Assembly: GCA_947625905.1 (NCBI GenBank)
Contig: CANQQJ010000002.1
Location: 1-64,000, forward strand
Source: an uncultured Clostridia bacterium
GTDB lineage: Bacteria; Bacillota; Clostridia; Monoglobales; Monoglobaceae
Direction: 5' to 3'
DNA length: 64,000 nt
The notes under the pieces were generated by a model. That model saw only the letters and a list, made by a program, of their open reading frames with translations. It ran no database searches and was not told where the DNA came from. Position numbers and translations under genes: made by a program. The stretch's first letter is position 1. The number at the start of each line of letters is the position of its first letter. This document shows positions 13,060 through 25,306 of the stretch, piece by piece.

Positions 13060-14790
<1,731 letters not shown>

Positions 14791-14982
14791 CTATTTGTCA
14801 GCCCCTTCATCAAAAAATTTTTCATTATCCATAAGGTGAACAAGTTTGGCGGACAACGCCCTTTGTCCGTCATACACTCCCTTAAAGCGGTAAACAGTTC
14901 CGCCTATTTCAAGAGACAGCACTATATCGGGCAGAGAACAGGCGGAAGGATTTTTAGTCTTTATCGGCTCGGAATAATTCAT
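14791..14982 (-). CDS. Small TnpW-like transposon protein
   Basis: This 63-residue protein precedes the recombinase by 75 bases in the same direction. Its core (LSLEIGGTVYRFKGVYDG followed by a helix ending KLVHLMDNEKF) resembles the short beta-beta-alpha TnpW-type proteins encoded next to TndX-like recombinases. The start is supported by GGAGTG ten bases upstream. A regulatory or excision-assisting role is inferred from position only. The similarity is weak. Confidence 0.45.
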   Translation of the reverse strand: MNYSEPIKTKNPSACSLPDIVLSLEIGGTVYRFKGVYDGQRALSAKLVHLMDNEKFFDEGADK

Positions 14983-15028
14983 ATATTAAAACACTCCAAT
15001 TATAAAAATATTGATTTTTCATATGAAT

Positions 15029-15057
15029 ATCTAACCTCAAAAACGAAAGAATTTCAA
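15029..15057 (-). promoter_or_regulatory. Possible promoter of recombinase operon
   Basis: On the minus strand TTGAAA is followed after 17 bases by TTAGAT, about 40 bases before the small gene. The -10 box is imperfect. Two palindromic sites lie 80-200 bases upstream. Confidence 0.35.
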
Positions 15058-15122
15058 GCGGATAAGACCTAAAACAGTACAAAAAATATCGACATAATTC
15101 GGAAAACGGATAAAATATAAGA

Positions 15123-15224
15123 TAATAGCAAGCACAGCAAGTGTGGCCACACTTTTAATAAAAGATTTGCCTATGCCTGCTATTTTGAGAGAATAGCAAG
15201 CACAGCAAATGTGTACACACTTGC
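15123..15224. repeat. Two palindromic direct repeats upstream of recombinase
   Basis: Two copies of ATAGCAAGCACAGCAA lie 68 bases apart, each running into a palindrome. The first is AAGTGTGGCCACACTT (15139-15154, perfect). The second is centred on TGTGTACACA within 15205-15224 (one mismatch over 20 bases). They look like binding sites for a dimeric protein: an operator of the recombinase operon, or recombinase core or accessory sites. Confidence 0.6.
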
Positions 15225-15261
15225 GAATTTTCACTCATTCGCCTCCCGCTGCGAATATTGT

Positions 15262-15283
15262 AAAAATTGGGAGTCTCTCCCAA
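15262..15283 (-). terminator. Minus-strand terminator ahead of RNA leader
   Basis: TTGGGAG and CTCCCAA form a seven-pair stem with a three-base loop. On the minus strand it is followed by TTTTTA. It would stop transcription coming leftward out of the RNA leader region, that is, a possible antisense transcript. It may instead be a remnant of an older leader unit. Confidence 0.45.
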
Positions 15284-15310
15284 ACCCTGATATTGTTTTT
15301 GATATTTTCG

Positions 15311-15339
15311 TTGACTATAACTCCGTATTGTGCTATAAT
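15311..15339 (+). promoter_or_regulatory. Promoter of tandem structured leader
   Basis: TTGACT and TATAAT are 17 bases apart. The predicted start at 15346 is the first base of helix P1 of unit A, so the RNA would begin precisely with the structured unit. The spacer contains CTCCGTATTGTG, the same 12 bases as the terminator loop of unit B. Confidence 0.7.
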
Positions 15340-15345
15340 ATTTTT

Positions 15346-15537
15346 ACCACACAAAATTAAATATTTGCGCTTTGCATTTTTGTTGCAAATAGTATGTATT
15401 TTTTGTCTTTAGGCAAAAATACAAGCTCTACTTTCGCATACTTTTTGTGATATGTAAAGTACGAATAATTTTGTGTGGTAGCAAATTGGAGCTATGTATT
15501 TTTCGTGTGTGGTTCCGTTTGTGACCACACACTTTTT
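15346..15537 (+). ncRNA. Structured leader RNA unit A with terminator
   Basis: Helix P1 pairs ACCACACAAAATT (15346-15358) with AATTTTGTGTGGT (15467-15479), 13 perfect pairs. It encloses a P2 with one mismatch and a P3 hairpin (TGTATTTTT with AAAAATACA), plus an asymmetric bulge CTCTACTTTCGCAT 3' of P3. After P1 come AGCAA, GGAG and ATTTTTC blocks. A terminator hairpin (GTGTGTGGT with ACCACACAC, 15505-15532, then a T run) follows, whose loop TTCCG can pair with the upstream TGGAG. The same plan is repeated in unit B with compensating base changes. I recognise no described riboswitch or ncRNA class. Confidence 0.6.
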
Positions 15538-15587
15538 ATTTTATAAAAATACTTGCTATTTTTTTCGAGGTGTGGTATATTTAATTT

Positions 15588-15747
15588 GCGACATAAGTTA
15601 ATATTTTGACATGATATGTATTTTTCATTGGTAAAAATGCATACTCTTATTTTCACATGCTCATGTCAAAAGTATTGAAAACTTGTGTCGCAGCAATTCG
15701 GAGTTGCATTTTTCATGCGTTGCTCCGTATTGTGGCAACGCATTTTT
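15588..15747 (+). ncRNA. Structured leader RNA unit B with terminator
   Basis: P1 pairs GCGACATAAGTT (15588-15599) with AACTTGTGTCGC (15680-15691). P2 pairs TTTTGACATGA with TCATGTCAAAA. P3 pairs TATGTATTTTT with AAAAATGCATA. The bulge CTCTTATTTTCACAT matches that of unit A. The AGCAA, GGAG and ATTTTTC blocks recur, followed by a terminator stem ATGCGTTGC/GCAACGCAT (15715-15743) and T run. The loop CTCCG is fully complementary to the upstream CGGAG. The terminator ends 20 bases before the start codon of the surface protein, so read-through here would control that gene. Confidence 0.6.
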
Positions 15748-15768
15748 ATTATATGGAGGTATGATGTT

Positions 15769-18700
15769 ATGAAAAGGATTTTAAGTTTAGTTCTGGTGCT
15801 CGTGCTTATGTCAATGATTATCACTGTGCCGACCGTGGCAAGCGCTGAGACAGGAGTCGACACAAATACTGAAATCGCGGTATACAACATACATATAGGT
15901 GATTATATTAAGATGGGAACGTATTATGACGAACCGATCCTGTGGCGCTGTGTGGGTATAGATGAAAAAGGACCTCTTATTTTTTCTGATAAAATAATTT
16001 GCATAAAGCCTTTTGACGCTGCGGGAGAGGCAAATATAACAACCGGTTCTCATGGCAGAGATTCTGGCAGAAAATCTTGGGGATCAAACTATTGGGGCGA
16101 TAGCAATATGCGCTCATGGCTTAATTCAAATGCGTCTGCGGGAAACGTAAATTGGCTGTGCGGCAATCCGCCAGACGCGTCTCACGTATGGAACGGATGG
16201 AACGATTACGACCAAGAAGCGGGATTTTTGACGAACTTCACGCAAGAAGAGCTTAAAGCAATAAAAGAAGTGACACAAAAGTCGATTTTATCATACCCAG
16301 AAATAGATGCCGGAATGGTAAAAATTGGAAATGAAAAGCTAAGATATGTTACAGATATAGCAGATGTGGTTGCAAATTATGATAGCGCCTACTCAGAATA
16401 TATATCCGATAAAATGTTTCTGCTTGATATAAAGCAAATATATATGGTGTATAATAATAGAAACATTTTGGGTGATTATTATATAGGCAGACTTAGCAGT
16501 AAAGCGGTGAAATATTCTGAGTATTCTGTTCCTGATAATTATATTAATGGAAAATGGAATTACTGGCTTCGCACTCCAGACGCAGATTATAATCGTCTAA
16601 TGCGTTGTGTTCAATCGGATGGTTGTATTGATATTGCTAACGCATATCATGATGGTAACAACAATGGAAATCTTGGAGTGCGTCCTGCTTTTTATTTAAA
16701 TCAGGCAACTACAAGCTTTAAATCAGGATCGGGCATCGAAACAGACCCATATATTGTTGATGATACCAATTCGGGCGGAAGTTTAAGCCCAGACAAGGCG
16801 CCGATAATTAAATCGGCAAAGATGACATACGGCGGAGAGACTTATGATATACTGAAGCAGGCGGTGACCGTAGAGGAGGACAGCGGCGCGGACGCGACAA
16901 TAGAGGCGACAGCGGATGATAACGGCTGCAAAAACGTGCATGTTTACGTGACGCAGGGAGTCGGAACCGAGGTTGATATAACGGGGGTCTGCAAAGATAT
17001 AAAGCCCGGAAAAGATTTTTCCGCGAACAAAGATATATACATTCTTGCGATAGACGAGGACACCGGAAAATCGACATCAAAAAAGACCAAGCTCAAGATA
17101 TCGTCATTGGCGAGCGGCAAGCTCGGAGGCCAGAGCGGCGTTGAAGGACTTAATTTTAAGCTTGGCGGCGACACGGGCTTTACCATACCAGACAGCGTGC
17201 CCGTTTTTGGCGGCACGGAGATCAATTGGGAATTTGACTTTATTCCCATTTCGGTCGAGTATGACAGAGAAGACAACAACAAAATAAACGTCGTTTTCGG
17301 AACCAATATAACAAAGACCAAGGATGGCGAGCGGGAATATTTCAGCGATTTTAATTTTAAAGAATACAAAAAAAGTATTAAAAAAGCGGCGAGTAAGCAG
17401 AATAGAACGCTAAAACAGCTTAGAAACGACTTTAAGATGTCCGATGACATAAAAATGAGTATGTTTGGCGGAAATCTGCTCGGCGGAGGCTCCGGAGAGA
17501 AAGGCAGCAGCGTTGATGTGGCGGGATACGCCGAGATGCACATGACCGAAAATGGACTGCAGTTCACCGAGGGACAACTCTGCGTGAATGTTGAGTTTAC
17601 GTATAACTATCAGGGTCAGATATTCATTTGGGTGGTGCCGCTCTATTACGAGTTCGGCGGCGGAGCCGGAGTTGGATTTGAGGGTGGCATGAAGGACGTC
17701 AATCCCATATCATTCTCGCCGGAGTTTGAGGCGTATCTCACCGGCAAGATAATGGGCTCGATAGGCGGCGGAGTCGGAATCGCCAAGGTCGCGACGGCGG
17801 GCGCCGCGGGCGAGGCCGCACTGAACCTCAAAAAAAGCCTCCAAAACTCGTATTTCAAAGCCGATGTTGACGGAAGCGCTAATTTCAACGTCAAGGTGTT
17901 CGGCAAAGAAGTCGCGAAAAAAATTTTCGCGAGCGGCAATTTCCTGATCTACGAGACAGGGAACAGCAAGGGTATGCTGAACAAGCTCAAGGCGTCTGCC
18001 GCAGAAGCCGACGATATGTTCGGCTTTGACGTGAACGCGGTTTATGAAAACGAGCCTCGCGGCTATATCAAAACTCCGACGCTGTGGCTCGGTTCCGAGC
18101 CCGAGGCGGAAGCGGCGGCGGAATACAGCAATAAAAATTTAAAGCGGCTGGCCGAAAATATTTATACCGAGTGCGCTCCGCAGATATGCGAAGCGGGCGG
18201 CGAAAAGATCATGATAATGCAGTGGGATGATCCGAGCAGAAGCGACGCCGACAGAACGATGCTCGTATATTCGGTTTATGACGAGGCAAGCGGTACATGG
18301 TCGGAACCGACTTCGGTCGACGATGACGGAACAGCGGATTTCTACCCGTGTTTCAGAGACGGCTATCTCGTATGGCAGAACGAAAAAACAACGCTTTCGG
18401 ACAATATGACGCTTACCGATATAGCGAAGCTCGGCGAGATATGTGTTTCAAAATGGAACGGAAACGGCTTTGACAAGCCCGCAAGAATAACCGACAACAA
18501 CAGCCTTGACACTCAGCCGCAGATCGCCGTATCGGACGAGGGCGCGAGCGTTGTGTGGACGACGAACACGGACAATGATATAATGGGAATAACGGGAAGC
18601 AACAGCATTATGCGCTCCGATTTTGATGGCGCGGCATGGAGTGCACCGCGCGAGATAAGATCTGGGCTTAACGCTATAACCAACATAACGGCGGGCAGCG

Positions 18701-20124
18701 TGAACGGTGATTTTTATGCCGCTTACGTAACGGACGACGACAACGACCTGAACACCATAGATGACAGGGATATAAAAATAATAGGAAGCGCGGGCGAGAT
18801 ACAGCTCACGCATAACGATGTTCTGGACAGCAACCCGATATTCGCGAATAATATGATATATTACTACAGCGGCGGAAACATAGCGTATTCGGAAATCGAC
18901 GGAACGGGCGCGCAGACTGTTTTCGCGGACGCGAAGGCGGGTCTGACCGACAGCTTTACGGTAAGCGGCAATAATAACGGTGACGCGGCGATCTGGTGGA
19001 CAAAGGCCGAAAACGGCGGAGCGGAGGTGTACTCGACGCTGTTTAAGAACGGCGCATGGAGCGACGAGATCCTAGTGACAAATGTCGGAAACAAGGCGAA
19101 GTATCCGAGCGGCGTTTTAAACGGCGACGGCACAATGCTTGTGGCGTTCAATAACGGTGTTCTTGAAAACAACGAGATCGTAAAGACCGATCTGTATACC
19201 GTCTCGGTGGTTCCGTCATATGATTTGGAAATCACGGACGCGTATATTGACGAGGAAACAATGACGGTATACGCCACTATCAAAAACAGCGGCGAGCTCA
19301 ATATTGACTCATACGCTATAGCGATCAACGACGGCGGGATAAATTCCGAAAAGACGATAACTCAGCCGATAAAAGCGGGAGAGAGCGCCGACGTTTCGAT
19401 AGAGTACAACAAGCCGCAGAACTTCTCAAAAAGAAGCGTTAAGCTCACTGTCTCAATACAAAGCGGCGAGGAGTATTACACCGAGAACAACTCGAAAGAC
19501 TTTGTGATAGGAAATGCGGACATTTTTGTTGACAATGTTTCGGCAAACACGGATGAAACGCTCATTACCGCCGACATTTCAAACATCGGTTATGACAAAG
19601 CCGGCAGCGTAAAGATCAGTCTGTGCGACGGTGATTCGGTGATAGATGAAAGAAATTTGACGCTGTCCGCGGGAGACTCTTCACACGTTGAGTTTTCGAT
19701 CGACAAAGCCTCAATGAGATTCCCCGAAGCGACAAAGACGATTTACGTAAAGGCGGAATTTGACGGCGAGGAAGCGTCGCTCGGCAACAACGACGGATAT
19801 GTTTTGATTGGCAGTCCATCGGGCATGGCGGACCATGAGGCGGAAATATTGGGCTGCGCAAAAACAGACAGCGGATATGTTATAAACACAAATGCGGCCA
19901 ACAATACCGAAAGCGCGGTGTCGTGCAATATGTACGCGGCGGTATATGCGGCGGACGGAACGCTCAAGGCCTGCGGAACGGTTCCCGCGGAGATCGAGGC
20001 AAACAGCGACATCGGCGTTGATATACCGGTATCATGCGAGATAGAGGCGGGCGACACGATCAAAGCCTTCATGTGGTCGGACAGTCTTGAGCCTCTGGCC
20101 TCGCCCGCGGAGCTGGATATGTAA
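15769..20124 (+). CDS. Giant secreted surface protein with DUF6273-like head
   Basis: The 1451-residue protein has a signal peptide (MKRILSLVLVLVLMSMIITV, cut near VASA). A head of about 300 residues (IGDYIKMGTYYDEPILWRCV, NYWLRTPDADYN and GVRPAFYLN) matches the DUF6273 pattern, a C-type-lectin-like fold in Clostridia. The middle is Gly-rich and beta-rich, and a WD/sialidase-like repeat region runs around 780-1160. CARDB-like domains end the chain. No sortase motif or SLH repeat is visible. ATG 15769 follows TGGAGG by nine bases. The first kilobase (leader and head) is AT-rich and the rest GC-rich, so the gene looks mosaic. The C-terminal half resembles the protein at 54071. Expression is probably gated by the two leader terminators. 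Adhesion or glycan binding is a guess. Confidence 0.7.
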   Translation: MKRILSLVLVLVLMSMIITVPTVASAETGVDTNTEIAVYNIHIGDYIKMGTYYDEPILWRCVGIDEKGPLIFSDKIICIKPFDAAGEANITTGSHGRDSGRKSWGSNYWGDSNMRSWLNSNASAGNVNWLCGNPPDASHVWNGWNDYDQEAGFLTNFTQEELKAIKEVTQKSILSYPEIDAGMVKIGNEKLRYVTDIADVVANYDSAYSEYISDKMFLLDIKQIYMVYNNRNILGDYYIGRLSSKAVKYSEYSVPDNYINGKWNYWLRTPDADYNRLMRCVQSDGCIDIANAYHDGNNNGNLGVRPAFYLNQATTSFKSGSGIETDPYIVDDTNSGGSLSPDKAPIIKSAKMTYGGETYDILKQAVTVEEDSGADATIEATADDNGCKNVHVYVTQGVGTEVDITGVCKDIKPGKDFSANKDIYILAIDEDTGKSTSKKTKLKISSLASGKLGGQSGVEGLNFKLGGDTGFTIPDSVPVFGGTEINWEFDFIPISVEYDREDNNKINVVFGTNITKTKDGEREYFSDFNFKEYKKSIKKAASKQNRTLKQLRNDFKMSDDIKMSMFGGNLLGGGSGEKGSSVDVAGYAEMHMTENGLQFTEGQLCVNVEFTYNYQGQIFIWVVPLYYEFGGGAGVGFEGGMKDVNPISFSPEFEAYLTGKIMGSIGGGVGIAKVATAGAAGEAALNLKKSLQNSYFKADVDGSANFNVKVFGKEVAKKIFASGNFLIYETGNSKGMLNKLKASAAEADDMFGFDVNAVYENEPRGYIKTPTLWLGSEPEAEAAAEYSNKNLKRLAENIYTECAPQICEAGGEKIMIMQWDDPSRSDADRTMLVYSVYDEASGTWSEPTSVDDDGTADFYPCFRDGYLVWQNEKTTLSDNMTLTDIAKLGEICVSKWNGNGFDKPARITDNNSLDTQPQIAVSDEGASVVWTTNTDNDIMGITGSNSIMRSDFDGAAWSAPREIRSGLNAITNITAGSVNGDFYAAYVTDDDNDLNTIDDRDIKIIGSAGEIQLTHNDVLDSNPIFANNMIYYYSGGNIAYSEIDGTGAQTVFADAKAGLTDSFTVSGNNNGDAAIWWTKAENGGAEVYSTLFKNGAWSDEILVTNVGNKAKYPSGVLNGDGTMLVAFNNGVLENNEIVKTDLYTVSVVPSYDLEITDAYIDEETMTVYATIKNSGELNIDSYAIAINDGGINSEKTITQPIKAGESADVSIEYNKPQNFSKRSVKLTVSIQSGEEYYTENNSKDFVIGNADIFVDNVSANTDETLITADISNIGYDKAGSVKISLCDGDSVIDERNLTLSAGDSSHVEFSIDKASMRFPEATKTIYVKAEFDGEEASLGNNDGYVLIGSPSGMADHEAEILGCAKTDSGYVINTNAANNTESAVSCNMYAAVYAADGTLKACGTVPAEIEANSDIGVDIPVSCEIEAGDTIKAFMWSDSLEPLASPAELDM

Positions 20125-21087: not shown

Positions 21088-21128
21088 AAATATATAATAA
21101 ATTATAAAATGTTTGGAGAGTGATTTTT

Positions 21129-22625
21129 GTGCGATTGGATATTGAAGATAATAGTCTTCACGACTTGCTTTTGAGCAAGAAAGAACACATTGGCGGATCG
21201 TGGATTAATGGTATAGTAAATGTTATAAGTGGCATATCATTGGCAGTTACAATATATTCTGCTAAAATTCCTTTAATTATAATAAGTATTCCATTGTATT
21301 TATTTGCGAGTGGTCTTATCATATTTGGCCTTTTTCAATTTTATAATAATATAGGAAAAAGAGCATATAATTTTGAAAAATTATATAATGATATAAAACA
21401 ATTAAATGTTTTTGAAAATCAGTATTCTTTAGTAGCAATTTTAAATGATTTTGAGGGAGACTCTGCAAACAAAGTATTATTGAAATACTTTCCTTACGGT
21501 TGGGAGACGTATATGTTTTTATCGTATCGCTCCGCAGCTGAAAATGATGAAAATAATGTTAAATCCCGAGTAGCAAGAAGTTTAAAAATCAAATACACAC
21601 AAATAAGTGTAATGTTTCTTGCTGAAATACCAAATCAATCCAAATATTCTCCTGATCGTGGTATAGTTAGACCATATCACAATAAATATTATAAAGTATC
21701 TATAAGTGAGTTTCCAGATTTATTAAAGCAACCAGAGTTTGAATTGGATGGGGCTAAATATAAGTGGATGACATTAGATGAAATGTGGGAAGATAATCAA
21801 ATTAGGACTAATAATGCAGATGTGCTTAGTGAGTTTGAGAAATATATCTTTAATACAAACAAGCAGTTTGTGAATAAGGAATTTACTTATCCTGAAAAAA
21901 TTTATATAAGACTAAATCAAGTTTGTAATCTATCTTGTTCATTTTGTCTTATAAATGAAAAGTCACAAGAACTTTCAACAGAACAACTAAAAAAAGTCTT
22001 AAAAACTTTACAATTAAATGGTGTTAAAAAGGTAAAGCTAACAGGAGGAGAACCAACTTTACATACTGGTTTTATAGAAATTGTCAAATATAGTATTGAT
22101 TTGGGGTTAGAGCCTGTTATTTATAGTAATTTATATATATCTGAAAACATCATTGAACAACTGAAAAAATACCATATTTCCGTATCAACAAGTATTCATG
22201 GTGATGAAAAATTTCACGATTCAATCACATGTGAAGGTGCTTATAAGAAAACTTATACCAATATTTTGAAACTTATAGCAGCCAATATACCGGTTACAAT
22301 ACATATGGTTATAATGAATAAAAATTATGATCTTGCCGAAGTTGTTATACAAGATGCCATTAGATCTGGTGTTGAAAAGGTAACATTTCAAACATTAATT
22401 CCTCGAGGAAGGGGAATTGAATTATTTGATCAGGGAGAGGAAATCATGGATATTCGAAGAAAATTAGAATCATTATATCCATTAGAAGAAAAATATAAGT
22501 CAGACATAAAGATAAGTTTTAGTGATCTTTATGTAAAAGATTGCTACGTGGTAGAAACAGATGGTGCTATTTATATTGAAAAAGGGTATCCTGAGCAGGA
22601 TAAATTTATACGAGGATTAATATAA
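21129..22625 (+). CDS. Two-TM radical SAM protein, possible defence protein
   Basis: The 498-residue protein has three parts. Two membrane helices lie at residues 28-66. A globular region of about 70-235 ends in YKWMTLDEMWEDNQI, which resembles the C-terminal part of NUDIX-fold domains. A radical SAM domain starts near 255, with the cluster cysteines 266, 270 and 273 (CNLSCSFC) and GGEP at 306-309. The core is MoaA-like; only one further cysteine is near the end, so no SPASM cluster domain is evident. The GTG at 21129 is chosen because GGAG lies ten bases upstream; an earlier GTG is inside that site. Its stop overlaps the deaminase start (TAATG), so the two are translationally coupled. The chemistry is unknown. 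A nucleotide-modifying antiviral role like that of prokaryotic viperins is a hypothesis. Confidence 0.7.
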   Translation: MRLDIEDNSLHDLLLSKKEHIGGSWINGIVNVISGISLAVTIYSAKIPLIIISIPLYLFASGLIIFGLFQFYNNIGKRAYNFEKLYNDIKQLNVFENQYSLVAILNDFEGDSANKVLLKYFPYGWETYMFLSYRSAAENDENNVKSRVARSLKIKYTQISVMFLAEIPNQSKYSPDRGIVRPYHNKYYKVSISEFPDLLKQPEFELDGAKYKWMTLDEMWEDNQIRTNNADVLSEFEKYIFNTNKQFVNKEFTYPEKIYIRLNQVCNLSCSFCLINEKSQELSTEQLKKVLKTLQLNGVKKVKLTGGEPTLHTGFIEIVKYSIDLGLEPVIYSNLYISENIIEQLKKYHISVSTSIHGDEKFHDSITCEGAYKKTYTNILKLIAANIPVTIHMVIMNKNYDLAEVVIQDAIRSGVEKVTFQTLIPRGRGIELFDQGEEIMDIRRKLESLYPLEEKYKSDIKISFSDLYVKDCYVVETDGAIYIEKGYPEQDKFIRGLI

Positions 22626-23101
22626 TGAATGATAAAATTCTTAGACAAGTAATGAGCTATTGTATCAATTTAGCAAAGGACAATGCAAAAAATGATCAAT
22701 ATCCAATAGCAGCAATTGTTGCAGATCAAGCTGGGAATGTGTTAACAACGTCGAGTAGTAGTTTGAGGAAAAAGTATGATCCAACAAATCATCCTGAAAT
22801 TGAAGCGATTCGAAAAGCAACTGAAATACTTGAGACTCGTTTCCTTAATGATTACTATTTATTTACTACATTAGAGCCATGTCCGATGTGTACATCAGCT
22901 GCTATTTGGGCTAAAATGAAAGGAATTGTATATGGGGCATATCAAGAAGATGTTATGGAATATATTGATATAAATCATAATAGAAAATTTTCTTGGAGAC
23001 AAATAAGGGTAAAATCCAAAGAAATTGTAAATAATGGATATCCAACGTTAGAATTGTATGAAGGAATACTTAGGGAAGAGTGTAAATTGTTATTCATATA
23101 A
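22625..23101 (+). CDS. Zinc-dependent nucleoside/tRNA deaminase-family protein
   Basis: The 158-residue protein belongs to the cytidine/deoxycytidylate deaminase superfamily. The zinc and proton-shuttle motif is His56-Pro-Glu58 (HPEIEA), and the second zinc motif is Pro-Cys86-x-x-Cys89 (EPCPMCTSA). The PMCTSA form is nearest to guanine deaminase and TadA-like members, so the substrate could be guanine, a nucleoside, a nucleotide or RNA. It overlaps the radical SAM stop by one base and is equally AT-rich. The tight coupling suggests that the deaminase acts on the substrate or product of the radical SAM enzyme, or that both form a toxic or antiviral effector pair. It is not a housekeeping tadA context. 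Confidence 0.8.
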   Translation: MNDKILRQVMSYCINLAKDNAKNDQYPIAAIVADQAGNVLTTSSSSLRKKYDPTNHPEIEAIRKATEILETRFLNDYYLFTTLEPCPMCTSAAIWAKMKGIVYGAYQEDVMEYIDINHNRKFSWRQIRVKSKEIVNNGYPTLELYEGILREECKLLFI

Positions 23102-23285: not shown

Positions 23286-23905
23286 ATGAAAATACAAAAA
23301 GAAGTTATCAAGGAATATGTAAAAAGCGAGAAATTTACAAACACTGCCGACATCATGGACAGCATTAAATCTATGTTTGCGGATGTTCTGAACGAGGTGC
23401 TTCAGTGCGAGCTTGACGAACAGCTCGGCTACAAAAAACATGAGCGCTCGGATTCCGGCAGCGAAAAGAAAAACTACAGAAACGGCTCTACCAAGCGCAG
23501 AATGAAAACTCAGCTCGGAGAGGTTGAGATTTCCGTTCCCCGCGACAGAAACGGCGAGTATGAGCCTAAGATCATCGATAAGTATCAGCGTAACGCAGAC
23601 GGCTTGGAAAATAAGATATTATCTCTGTATTCTCACGGTATGTCTACACAGGATATACAGGAATAGATAAAAGATTTGTATGATATAAATATATTATCGG
23701 AGCTTGTGTCATTGAGGAGGTTAAACTGAATAGTTCAAGAAAGTCGCAAAGAGCAAATTTGTGTTTCCGACATATGATTAGCTAAAGAACATATTGCATC
23801 TTGCCTAACAAGAATATCACAAAGAAATTGGCGCAGAGGTACAAAAATTGGTACGACATAGTGATCCGACAGCTTGAGATAATGCACGAGGAAAGAACAG
23901 CGTAA
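23286..23905 (+). pseudogene. IS256-family transposase, broken
   Basis: The first 126 codons encode an intact mutator-type N-terminus (ELDEQLGYKKHERSD, ISVPRDRNGEYEPKI). Then TAG replaces the glutamine expected in DIQEQIKDLYDI; the frame continues IKDLYDINI after the stop and then degenerates. A C-terminal tail reappears near 23808-23905 (KNITKKLAQRYKNWYDIVIR ending in ERTA), typical of the family. About 800 bases with the catalytic DDE core are missing. The start follows AAGGAGG. The element is dead. Confidence 0.8.
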
Positions 23906-24055
23906 GCGGAGCTCTGCCCGCATCCCCCAAATTTAACCATTGGCTTTCACTGAAACGGGCACAAAAACGAGACAATCCCATATTTTGTGTAAAGTAAGTT
24001 GTTTAAACCTCCAAGATGGTATATAATAAAAATATCAAATTGGAGGTTTTTAATT

Positions 24056-25306
24056 ATGCCACGTTACAAAAAGAGTGCCGCTGAGCGAGCGGCGGAGAAG
24101 GAAAGACGAGAAAAAATACTCAATTTTGTGCACGAAATGGGTGCCGAGGGGATCGAGGATCTGCATGACGTTTACAAAATGATGATCGGCGCAGTGATAG
24201 ACGGAGGACTCGAAGCCGAGCTTGATGAACAGCTTGGTTACTCTAAGTATGACTATCGCAGCAAAGAAGTCAACAACAGCCGGAACGGTCATTCGAAAAA
24301 GACCTTAAAAACAAGCTTCGGTGATACCGAAATTGCCGTTCCCAGAGACCGCAACGGAGAGTTTGAACCACAGCTTGTCAAGAAAAATCAGACTACACTT
24401 ACAGGAGACATCGAAGAGAAAATATTGTCTATGTACGCAAAAGGAATGACGACTAAGGACATAGAGACGCATATAATGGAGATATACGGACTCGAATGTT
24501 CCGACAGCACCATAAGCCGAATTACAGATAAAATACTGCCCGTTGTGCGGGAATGGCAGTCCAGACCACTCGAAGAGATCTACGCTGTAGTCTTTATGGA
24601 CGCAATACATTTTCACGTAAGGAGCGAAGGCAGGATCGTGAAAAAAGCCGTATACATAGCTATAGGTATACGTATGGACGGATTAAAAGAGGTACTTGGC
24701 ATGTGGGTAGGCGAGAATGAGAGCGCAAAGTTTTGGCTGTCGGTGATGAACGGACTGAAGAACAGAGGCGTCGAAGATATCTTAATTGCCTGTGTAGACG
24801 GCTTAACAGGCTTTCCGGCGGCGATAGAATCGGTATATCCGAAAACAGAGATACAGCAATGCATTATCCATCAAATCAGGAATACGACAAAATATGTATC
24901 CTACAAGGACATTAAGGAGCTAATGGCGGATCTGAAGCGAGTATATGCGGCAGTGGACGAGCCTACAGCTCTTTCGGAGCTTGATGATTTTGATGAAAAA
25001 TGGAGCGTTAAATATCCGAAAATAGCTATATCATGGCGAAAGAATTGGGCAAATTTATCGACATATTTCAAATATCCGCAAGCGGTGAGAACGCTGATAT
25101 ACACGACGAATACCATAGAAGGATTCAACCGACAGCTGAGGAAAGTGACAAAAAACAAAAGCGTATTTCCGACGGATGAGAGCTTGATAAAGATGCTGTA
25201 TCTGGCGATGATAGACATAACGAAAAAATGGACAGGCAAGCGCAAGGACTGGGGAGTGATCCATTCGCAGCTTGAGATATTTTTCGCGGATCGGCTGCCG
25301 GAATAA
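24056..25306 (+). CDS. IS256/Mutator-family transposase
   Basis: The 416-residue protein catalyses copy-out or cut-and-paste transposition through a DDE RNase-H fold. The acidic residues appear in YAVVFMDAIHFHV, ACVDGLTGFPAAIESVYP and NTIEGFNRQLRKVTK, and the C/D(2)H-like IQQCIIHQIRN signature is present. Other family segments are ELDEQLGYSKYD and IAVPRDRNGEFEP near the N-terminus. The ATG follows TGGAGG by nine bases. It appears intact and could mobilise both itself and the degenerate copy. Confidence 0.93.
   Translation: MPRYKKSAAERAAEKERREKILNFVHEMGAEGIEDLHDVYKMMIGAVIDGGLEAELDEQLGYSKYDYRSKEVNNSRNGHSKKTLKTSFGDTEIAVPRDRNGEFEPQLVKKNQTTLTGDIEEKILSMYAKGMTTKDIETHIMEIYGLECSDSTISRITDKILPVVREWQSRPLEEIYAVVFMDAIHFHVRSEGRIVKKAVYIAIGIRMDGLKEVLGMWVGENESAKFWLSVMNGLKNRGVEDILIACVDGLTGFPAAIESVYPKTEIQQCIIHQIRNTTKYVSYKDIKELMADLKRVYAAVDEPTALSELDDFDEKWSVKYPKIAISWRKNWANLSTYFKYPQAVRTLIYTTNTIEGFNRQLRKVTKNKSVFPTDESLIKMLYLAMIDITKKWTGKRKDWGVIHSQLEIFFADRLPE

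Follow-up and report, generated by a model that had tools for sequence, protein, structure and literature searches.

The window analysed here, a stretch of 64,000 nucleotides from an uncultured Clostridia bacterium, carries two RNA units, designated A and B, one behind the other on the forward strand, and they are followed by a Shine-Dalgarno sequence and by a long gene that is presumed to be under their control (Table 1). Each unit comprises, in order, a predicted promoter, a rod of paired segments (P1, P2 and P3), a linker and an intrinsic terminator. A preliminary description, made from the letters of the DNA alone, had taken the pair for a tandem regulatory RNA of an unrecognised class that acts by termination. 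A covariance model (R1), built from an alignment of 22 units of this and related genomes, placed unit A at 15346-15537 and unit B at 15588-15748, no more than one base from where they had first been drawn. The pairings originally given for them were indeed found: ACCACAC/GTGTGGT in P1 of unit A and GCGACA/TGTCGC in that of unit B, GTGTGTGGT/ACCACACAC and ATGCGTTGC/GCAACGCAT in the respective terminator stems, and the loop (CTCCG or TTCCG) with an upstream CGGAG or TGGAG. Two further complementarities had escaped that description, namely that the GGAG of either unit can also pair with a conserved GCUCU/ACUCU motif, and that the linker (UGUAUUUUU/UGCAUUUUU) can do so with the P3 3' strand. Both units fold far more stably than their dinucleotide shuffles (z = -7.5 for unit A and -7.2 for unit B).

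Table 1. Features of units A and B and of the gene behind them, in window coordinates.
Feature	Position	Strand	Remarks
Promoter of unit A (predicted)	15311-15339	+	-35 TTGACT, 17-nt spacer, -10 TATAAT, TG before the -10
Unit A, whole putative attenuator RNA, P1 to terminator U-tract	15346-15537	+	Model R1, 148.5 bits, E 3.7e-27
Unit A, P1, 5' strand	15346-15359	+	Pairs with 15466-15479; perfect inverted repeat
Unit A, inner P2, 5' strand	15391-15395	+	Pairs with 15438-15442
Unit A, P3 hairpin, GUAUUUUUUGUC / GGCAAAAAUAC	15396-15422	+	P3 covariation
Unit A, motif AAAAAUACAAGCUCU (P3 3' strand and GCUCU)	15415-15429	+	Alternative partner of the linker
Unit A, P1, 3' strand	15466-15479	+	Inverted repeat; covariation
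Unit A, linker AGCAAAUUGGAGCUAUGUAUUUUUC	15480-15504	+	Partners: 15415-15429, or terminator 5' arm/loop
Unit A, intrinsic terminator, GUGUGUGGU-loop-ACCACACAC-UUUUU	15505-15537	+	
Promoter of unit B (predicted)	15553-15581	+	TTGCTA, 17-nt spacer, TATATT, TG before the -10
Unit B, whole putative attenuator RNA	15588-15747	+	Model R1, 119.3 bits, E 4.7e-21
Unit B, P1, 5' strand	15588-15599	+	Pairs with 15680-15691
Unit B, P3 hairpin and motif AAAAAUGCAUACUCU (15633-15647)	15618-15647	+	
Unit B, linker AGCAAUUCGGAGUUGCAUUUUUC	15692-15714	+	
Unit B, intrinsic terminator, AUGCGUUGC-loop-GCAACGCAU-UUUU	15715-15747	+	
Shine-Dalgarno GGAGG	15755-15759	+	From sequence
Gene presumed under control, 1451-aa protein	15769-20124	+	DUF6273, CARDB; signal peptide by eye

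The predicted promoter of unit A matches at 11 of 12 positions and ends 6 nt upstream of P1, so that the RNA would start at 15346, exactly where P1 begins, as had been proposed. Initiation would not be confined to that position, as was originally thought, since unit B has a promoter of its own, which likewise ends 6 nt before P1 and predicts a start at 15588. The same arrangement recurs in the family: among the 190 units with recognisable -10 boxes, the box lies exactly 6 nt before P1 in 142 and is preceded by TG in 151, and the spacer measures 17 nt in 127 of 133. Each copy would therefore typically possess its own sigma-A-type promoter, with the predicted start at the first base of P1.

Part of this region has a counterpart elsewhere in the genome. 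A 1.2-kb stretch, 14416-15606, takes in unit A, the first part of unit B and the 5' part of a minus-strand serine recombinase gene (13078-14715); it is 90.6% identical to a stretch of contig C11 (L009), a segmental or mobile duplication. Upstream of the promoter, 15120-15222 contains a 35-bp direct repeat, AGATAATAGCAAGCACAGCAAGTGTGGCCACACTT, whose copies are 89% identical and lie 68 bp apart; it is also found in the C11 copy.

To place the units among their relatives, homologues were collected. In the window's genome (2.96 Mb in 68 contigs), a plain DNA search retrieved a dozen copies, and model R1 found 29, of which 14 had E below 1e-19. Units were present in 35 of 38 genomes of the same family and in all nine of the genera covered (9/9), often with 10-30 copies in each genome; in a sample of the class, 77 of 291 genomes contained them, as did 49 of 181 genera. 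A sample of the phylum comprised 398 genomes, some of them within the class, and was searched with the stricter filters used for large samples; none of the 397 genomes other than the window's own scored at E 1e-6, and these 397 thus serve as a negative control. A pattern scan of named genomes added uncultured Monoglobus, Oscillospiraceae, Ruminococcus, Eubacterium and other Clostridia; most of these come from the gut or rumen of animals. One pattern match in a Porticoccaceae genome (L159) was not matched by the model and is probably due to chance, and a phage origin was discarded, as only a single viral contig matched. Tandem units were seen at about a dozen of the examined loci, once as a triple (L227), usually with a promoter for each member; the tandem arrangement, first regarded as a defining feature, is an occasional and minority form.

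No match to Rfam 15 was obtained anywhere in the window at gathering thresholds, nor on the units and copies examined at permissive thresholds, which answers the comparison with Rfam that the preliminary description had called for. A literature search found no description of the family; an unnamed entry may exist in the supplement of PMC8040213, a study of 3161 candidate RNAs from human microbiomes, which lay outside the search. The RNA class is real, widespread, lineage-restricted and absent from Rfam. Accordingly, of the original proposal, the unrecognised class of regulatory RNA stands, with homologues that covary and no match in Rfam 15, and the tandem form as its hallmark does not. It could be argued that the units belong, as divergent members, to a riboswitch or leader class already described, as the layout of a P1 sensor, a linker and a terminator is common to many of these; however, with no Rfam 15 match on the examined units even at permissive thresholds, and with c-di-GMP an improbable ligand for reasons given below, we regard this as very unlikely.

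The helices of the rod were examined for covariation in two alignments that have few loci in common, namely A2, with 90 units (84 distinct), and A3, with 108 units taken at the loci of the pattern scan, 107 of them distinct. In A2, 92.3% of the 2568 cells of the modelled pairs were paired, as against 77.6% after shuffling and at most 54.5% in slid controls, and double-sided changes occurred in 29 of 32 pairs; in A3 the paired fraction was 93.1% over the 107 distinct sequences. Within A2, P1 was paired in 100% of its cells among the 84 distinct units, with double changes at all seven modelled pairs (7/7), P2 had double changes in five of five, and P3, paired in 85.3% of its cells, had them in nine of eleven; the terminator helix, which is followed by the U-tract, was 99.0% paired. 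When partners were permuted among units and the duplex energies compared, P3 strands preferred their own partners with z of -12.6 (84 units) and -9.8 (37 non-redundant units), and the side arms, which make up the rest of P1 and P2, averaged -19.9 kcal/mol in their native combination, as compared with -7.2 when arms were exchanged between units. Overall, P1, P2, P3 and the terminator covary strongly across homologues, and the units possess a folded, conserved sensor domain like that of a riboswitch.

The same data bear on whether the units could be a small, MITE-like mobile element with P1 as its inverted repeats, to which their multiple and occasionally tandem copies and the perfect inverted repeat of P1 in unit A would lend themselves. 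The arms of P1 do not have a fixed sequence, as such an element should, but vary among copies with compensation (GCCAC, GCGAC, GCCAA, ACCAC and others), and the units keep a steady orientation and distance to genes. Moreover, G-U pairs were frequent and A-C rare in the helices (290 against 41 and 394 against 47, an approximately 7- to 8-fold excess of G-U), which argues for a plus-strand RNA under selection rather than a DNA cruciform. We consider a mobile element extremely improbable, and the units are not a transposon end, a possibility that had been named early on as one that would overturn the regulatory interpretation. It is to be noted that the 19-mers repeated at contig ends in this genome are a different repeat from this RNA. 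Five contigs (L021, L022, L023, L024 and L025) end at one common sequence (TTGACAAGGACAGCTTGAGGCGAAAC...CATTGACAATTGTACA), which probably marks where a repeated mobile element ends.

The linker is complementary to two regions. Its consensus, GGAGC-UAUGCAUUUUU, complements the P3 3' strand together with the unpaired motif behind it (AAAAAUGCA-GCUCU), and its segment CAAUCGGAGC complements the 5' arm and loop of the terminator, GCUUCGAUUG; in unit A, for example, 15512-15521 can pair with linker positions 15482-15492 as an antiterminator. For the linker and the motif, 94.7% of the cells in A2 were paired, slid controls reaching at most 63.6%, and 57 cells were changed on both sides, in comparison with 16 in shuffles. 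In A3, at the two best of the positions left unconstrained by the search pattern, the pairs were U-A in 48 units, U-G in 29 and C-G in 28 at one, and G-C in 75, A-U in 23 and G-U in 7 at the other, with zero unpaired at either. For the linker and the terminator loop, 85.4% of the cells were paired and at most 47.4% in slid controls; double-changed pairs were not in excess over shuffles in these columns (5 versus 4.6).

Since insertions and deletions blur the alignment columns, the duplex-energy test was added, in which the partners were permuted among 84 units and then among 37 non-redundant ones. Linker and motif gave z of -10.8 and -9.1 and linker and terminator loop -10.2 and -9.1, respectively, and controls with reversed linkers had no effect (+1.3 and -0.8). 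The support for linker-loop pairing rests mainly on this permutation. Permutations leave some effects of relatedness in place; both the slid controls and A3, as an additional set of units, speak against relatedness as the cause. The competition of terminator and antiterminator that had been guessed from units A and B is thus borne out by coevolution of linker and loop across units, and the predicted antiterminator and terminator would, by their sequence, be mutually exclusive, as in an attenuator. Their predicted energies are also nearly equal (-15.0 kcal/mol for the prefix with linker-to-loop pairing and -14.8 for the terminator hairpin), as expected of a poised switch. A pass/fail folding test did not separate real linkers from others, as swapped and reversed linkers passed too.

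Together, these features are those of an attenuator in which the linker faces a three-way choice; they strongly suggest regulation by termination, and we infer both that termination is regulated and that there is an effector. As we envisage it, transcription would begin with the first base of P1, and the RNA would fold into the P1-P2-P3 rod. In the putative ON state, the linker CAAUCGGAGC would pair with the 5' arm and loop of the terminator as an antiterminator, the terminator would stay open and the gene would be transcribed. In the putative OFF state, the P3 3' strand and GCUCU would capture the linker, the P3 5' strand being displaced with GCUCU as a foothold, and the terminator would form and stop transcription before the Shine-Dalgarno sequence. 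An effector that stabilises one of the two forms of the sensor would set the choice. The geometry makes demands on this scheme: the rod measures about 25 bp, with the motif at its far end, and the distance from P1 to GGAGC is only about 7 nt, so that pairing of linker and motif requires either a sharp bend or a partial opening of the rod. We infer that the linker can reach P3 with the rod intact, perhaps through a bend at the conserved AAUAUU junction. The length distribution of the 3' side arm peaks at 25 nt, with a lesser mode at 35 nt, which would fit one helical turn, although, in a sample of related units, this is only a hint. With fair confidence, we regard the units as RNAs of a new class that attenuate transcription in cis, candidate riboswitches or effector-responsive leaders.

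The genes downstream were surveyed across the family. A Shine-Dalgarno sequence with a start codon lay no more than 70 nt downstream in 118 of 186 units (median, 22 nt), and the same test on the divergent side was positive in 3 of 187; an intrinsic terminator is thereby predicted between promoter and gene, as an attenuator would have it. For about one-third of the units, no start codon preceded by a Shine-Dalgarno sequence was found within 70 nt; some of these have a gene slightly further on, and for some others the next element is another terminator or convergent genes. This minority, along with the promoter and terminator that each unit possesses, could mean that the units are independent small RNAs that end near genes by chance, with any gene control incidental. 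We judge that quite unlikely, given the asymmetry between the two sides and the coevolution of terminator loop and linker, for which a plain terminator would have no need. Among 108 non-redundant downstream proteins searched against Pfam, 28 had LRR_5, and others matched, among others, MazE/AbrB-like, RCC1, Cu_amine_oxidN1, zinc ribbon, CHAP, dockerin and M23 families; a crude test suggested signal peptides in 61 of 110 proteins. This suggests that many targets are secreted, such as BspA-type LRR proteins, lipoproteins and other envelope proteins. Units at L067, L074, L075, L076, L228 and L217 precede small proteins in which an AbrB/MazE-like domain is joined to a zinc ribbon (MIVKIDSLGRILIPKKYREEF...CANCG), possibly regulators inside the regulon. 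Recurrent small proteins with no Pfam match were seen directly downstream of units in different genomes (L122, L131, L128, L103 and L163). Short reading frames were seen by eye in the leaders of single units; the idea of a leader peptide was dropped because the leaders differ in length among copies by non-multiples of three.

In transcription-terminating riboswitches, a sensor with P1 at the 5' end is followed by mutually exclusive antiterminator and terminator and, just downstream, by the Shine-Dalgarno sequence, and some occur in tandem. The units share this layout, including the occasional tandem, but match no Rfam class, and their linker is matched to both the sensor and the terminator loop. 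T-box leaders of Firmicutes also use terminator and antiterminator alternatives, as do the leaders described here; however, the Rfam T-box model gave no match and the targets are not mainly amino-acid genes. In LoaP/NusG-type leaders, RNA hairpins let the polymerase pass terminators, whereas here the linker could compete directly with the local terminator.

The c-di-GMP-I and -II riboswitches are present from several to many times in a genome, and in Clostridia some of them precede genes for surface and secreted proteins. As the units resemble them in copy number and in their targets, a multicopy surface-protein regulon, c-di-GMP was the first guess for the effector, but they match neither RF01051 nor RF01786 in sequence or structure. 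Furthermore, no GGDEF protein was found in the draft genomes of several carriers, namely the window's own (G000, 94% complete, 29 copies), G014 (21 copies), G028 (12), G019 (10), and G031 and G033 (9 each), which makes c-di-GMP unlikely as effector. A single-contig genome assigned to the same genus (G009) has the reverse of its relatives, with 14 GGDEF domains and no units; G018 is likewise free of units, and the near relatives of these two genomes have many. Of seven genomes checked, two have the c-di-GMP-I riboswitch itself, and it was absent from the other five, the window's among them. All seven have a DAC cyclase and none a c-di-AMP riboswitch, for which reason c-di-AMP was kept as a candidate; as the signal, it is unsupported.

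In the same attenuator, a dedicated protein could bind the sensor in place of a small molecule, whether as antiterminator or as repressor; this alternative overlaps our explanation and departs from it on the effector only. Many of the conserved bases are explained by the alternative pairing and not by an obvious binding pocket, and functionally mixed targets would suit a global protein regulator. Against it, an unsystematic look noticed no regulator gene beside the units, and they match no Rfam family, known protein-responsive leaders included. We view a protein effector as plausible but less likely than not. The more specific form of the riboswitch reading, in which an undescribed class would respond to a global signal other than c-di-GMP and control a surface and secreted regulon through a linker that trades P3 for the terminator loop, is advanced tentatively, at a little short of an even chance.

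With up to about 30 copies in a single genome, and present in many families of Clostridia from gut and rumen, the units would constitute a major unread layer of control over LRR surface proteins, lipoproteins and other envelope proteins, which may be in contact with the host and its diet. The scheme is directly testable, thanks to the many copies and the clear alternative pairings, and an effector, if found, could reveal a signal for surface remodelling in these largely uncultured bacteria.

Two minor observations concern the DNA beyond the 1451-residue protein. At 21120-23101, a 501-residue open reading frame with what looks by eye like a radical-SAM-type CxxxCxxC stretch directly precedes one of 158 residues that looks deaminase-like, and downstream of the gene block, at 23286-25306, two open reading frames resemble, by eye, IS256-type (Mutator) transposases.
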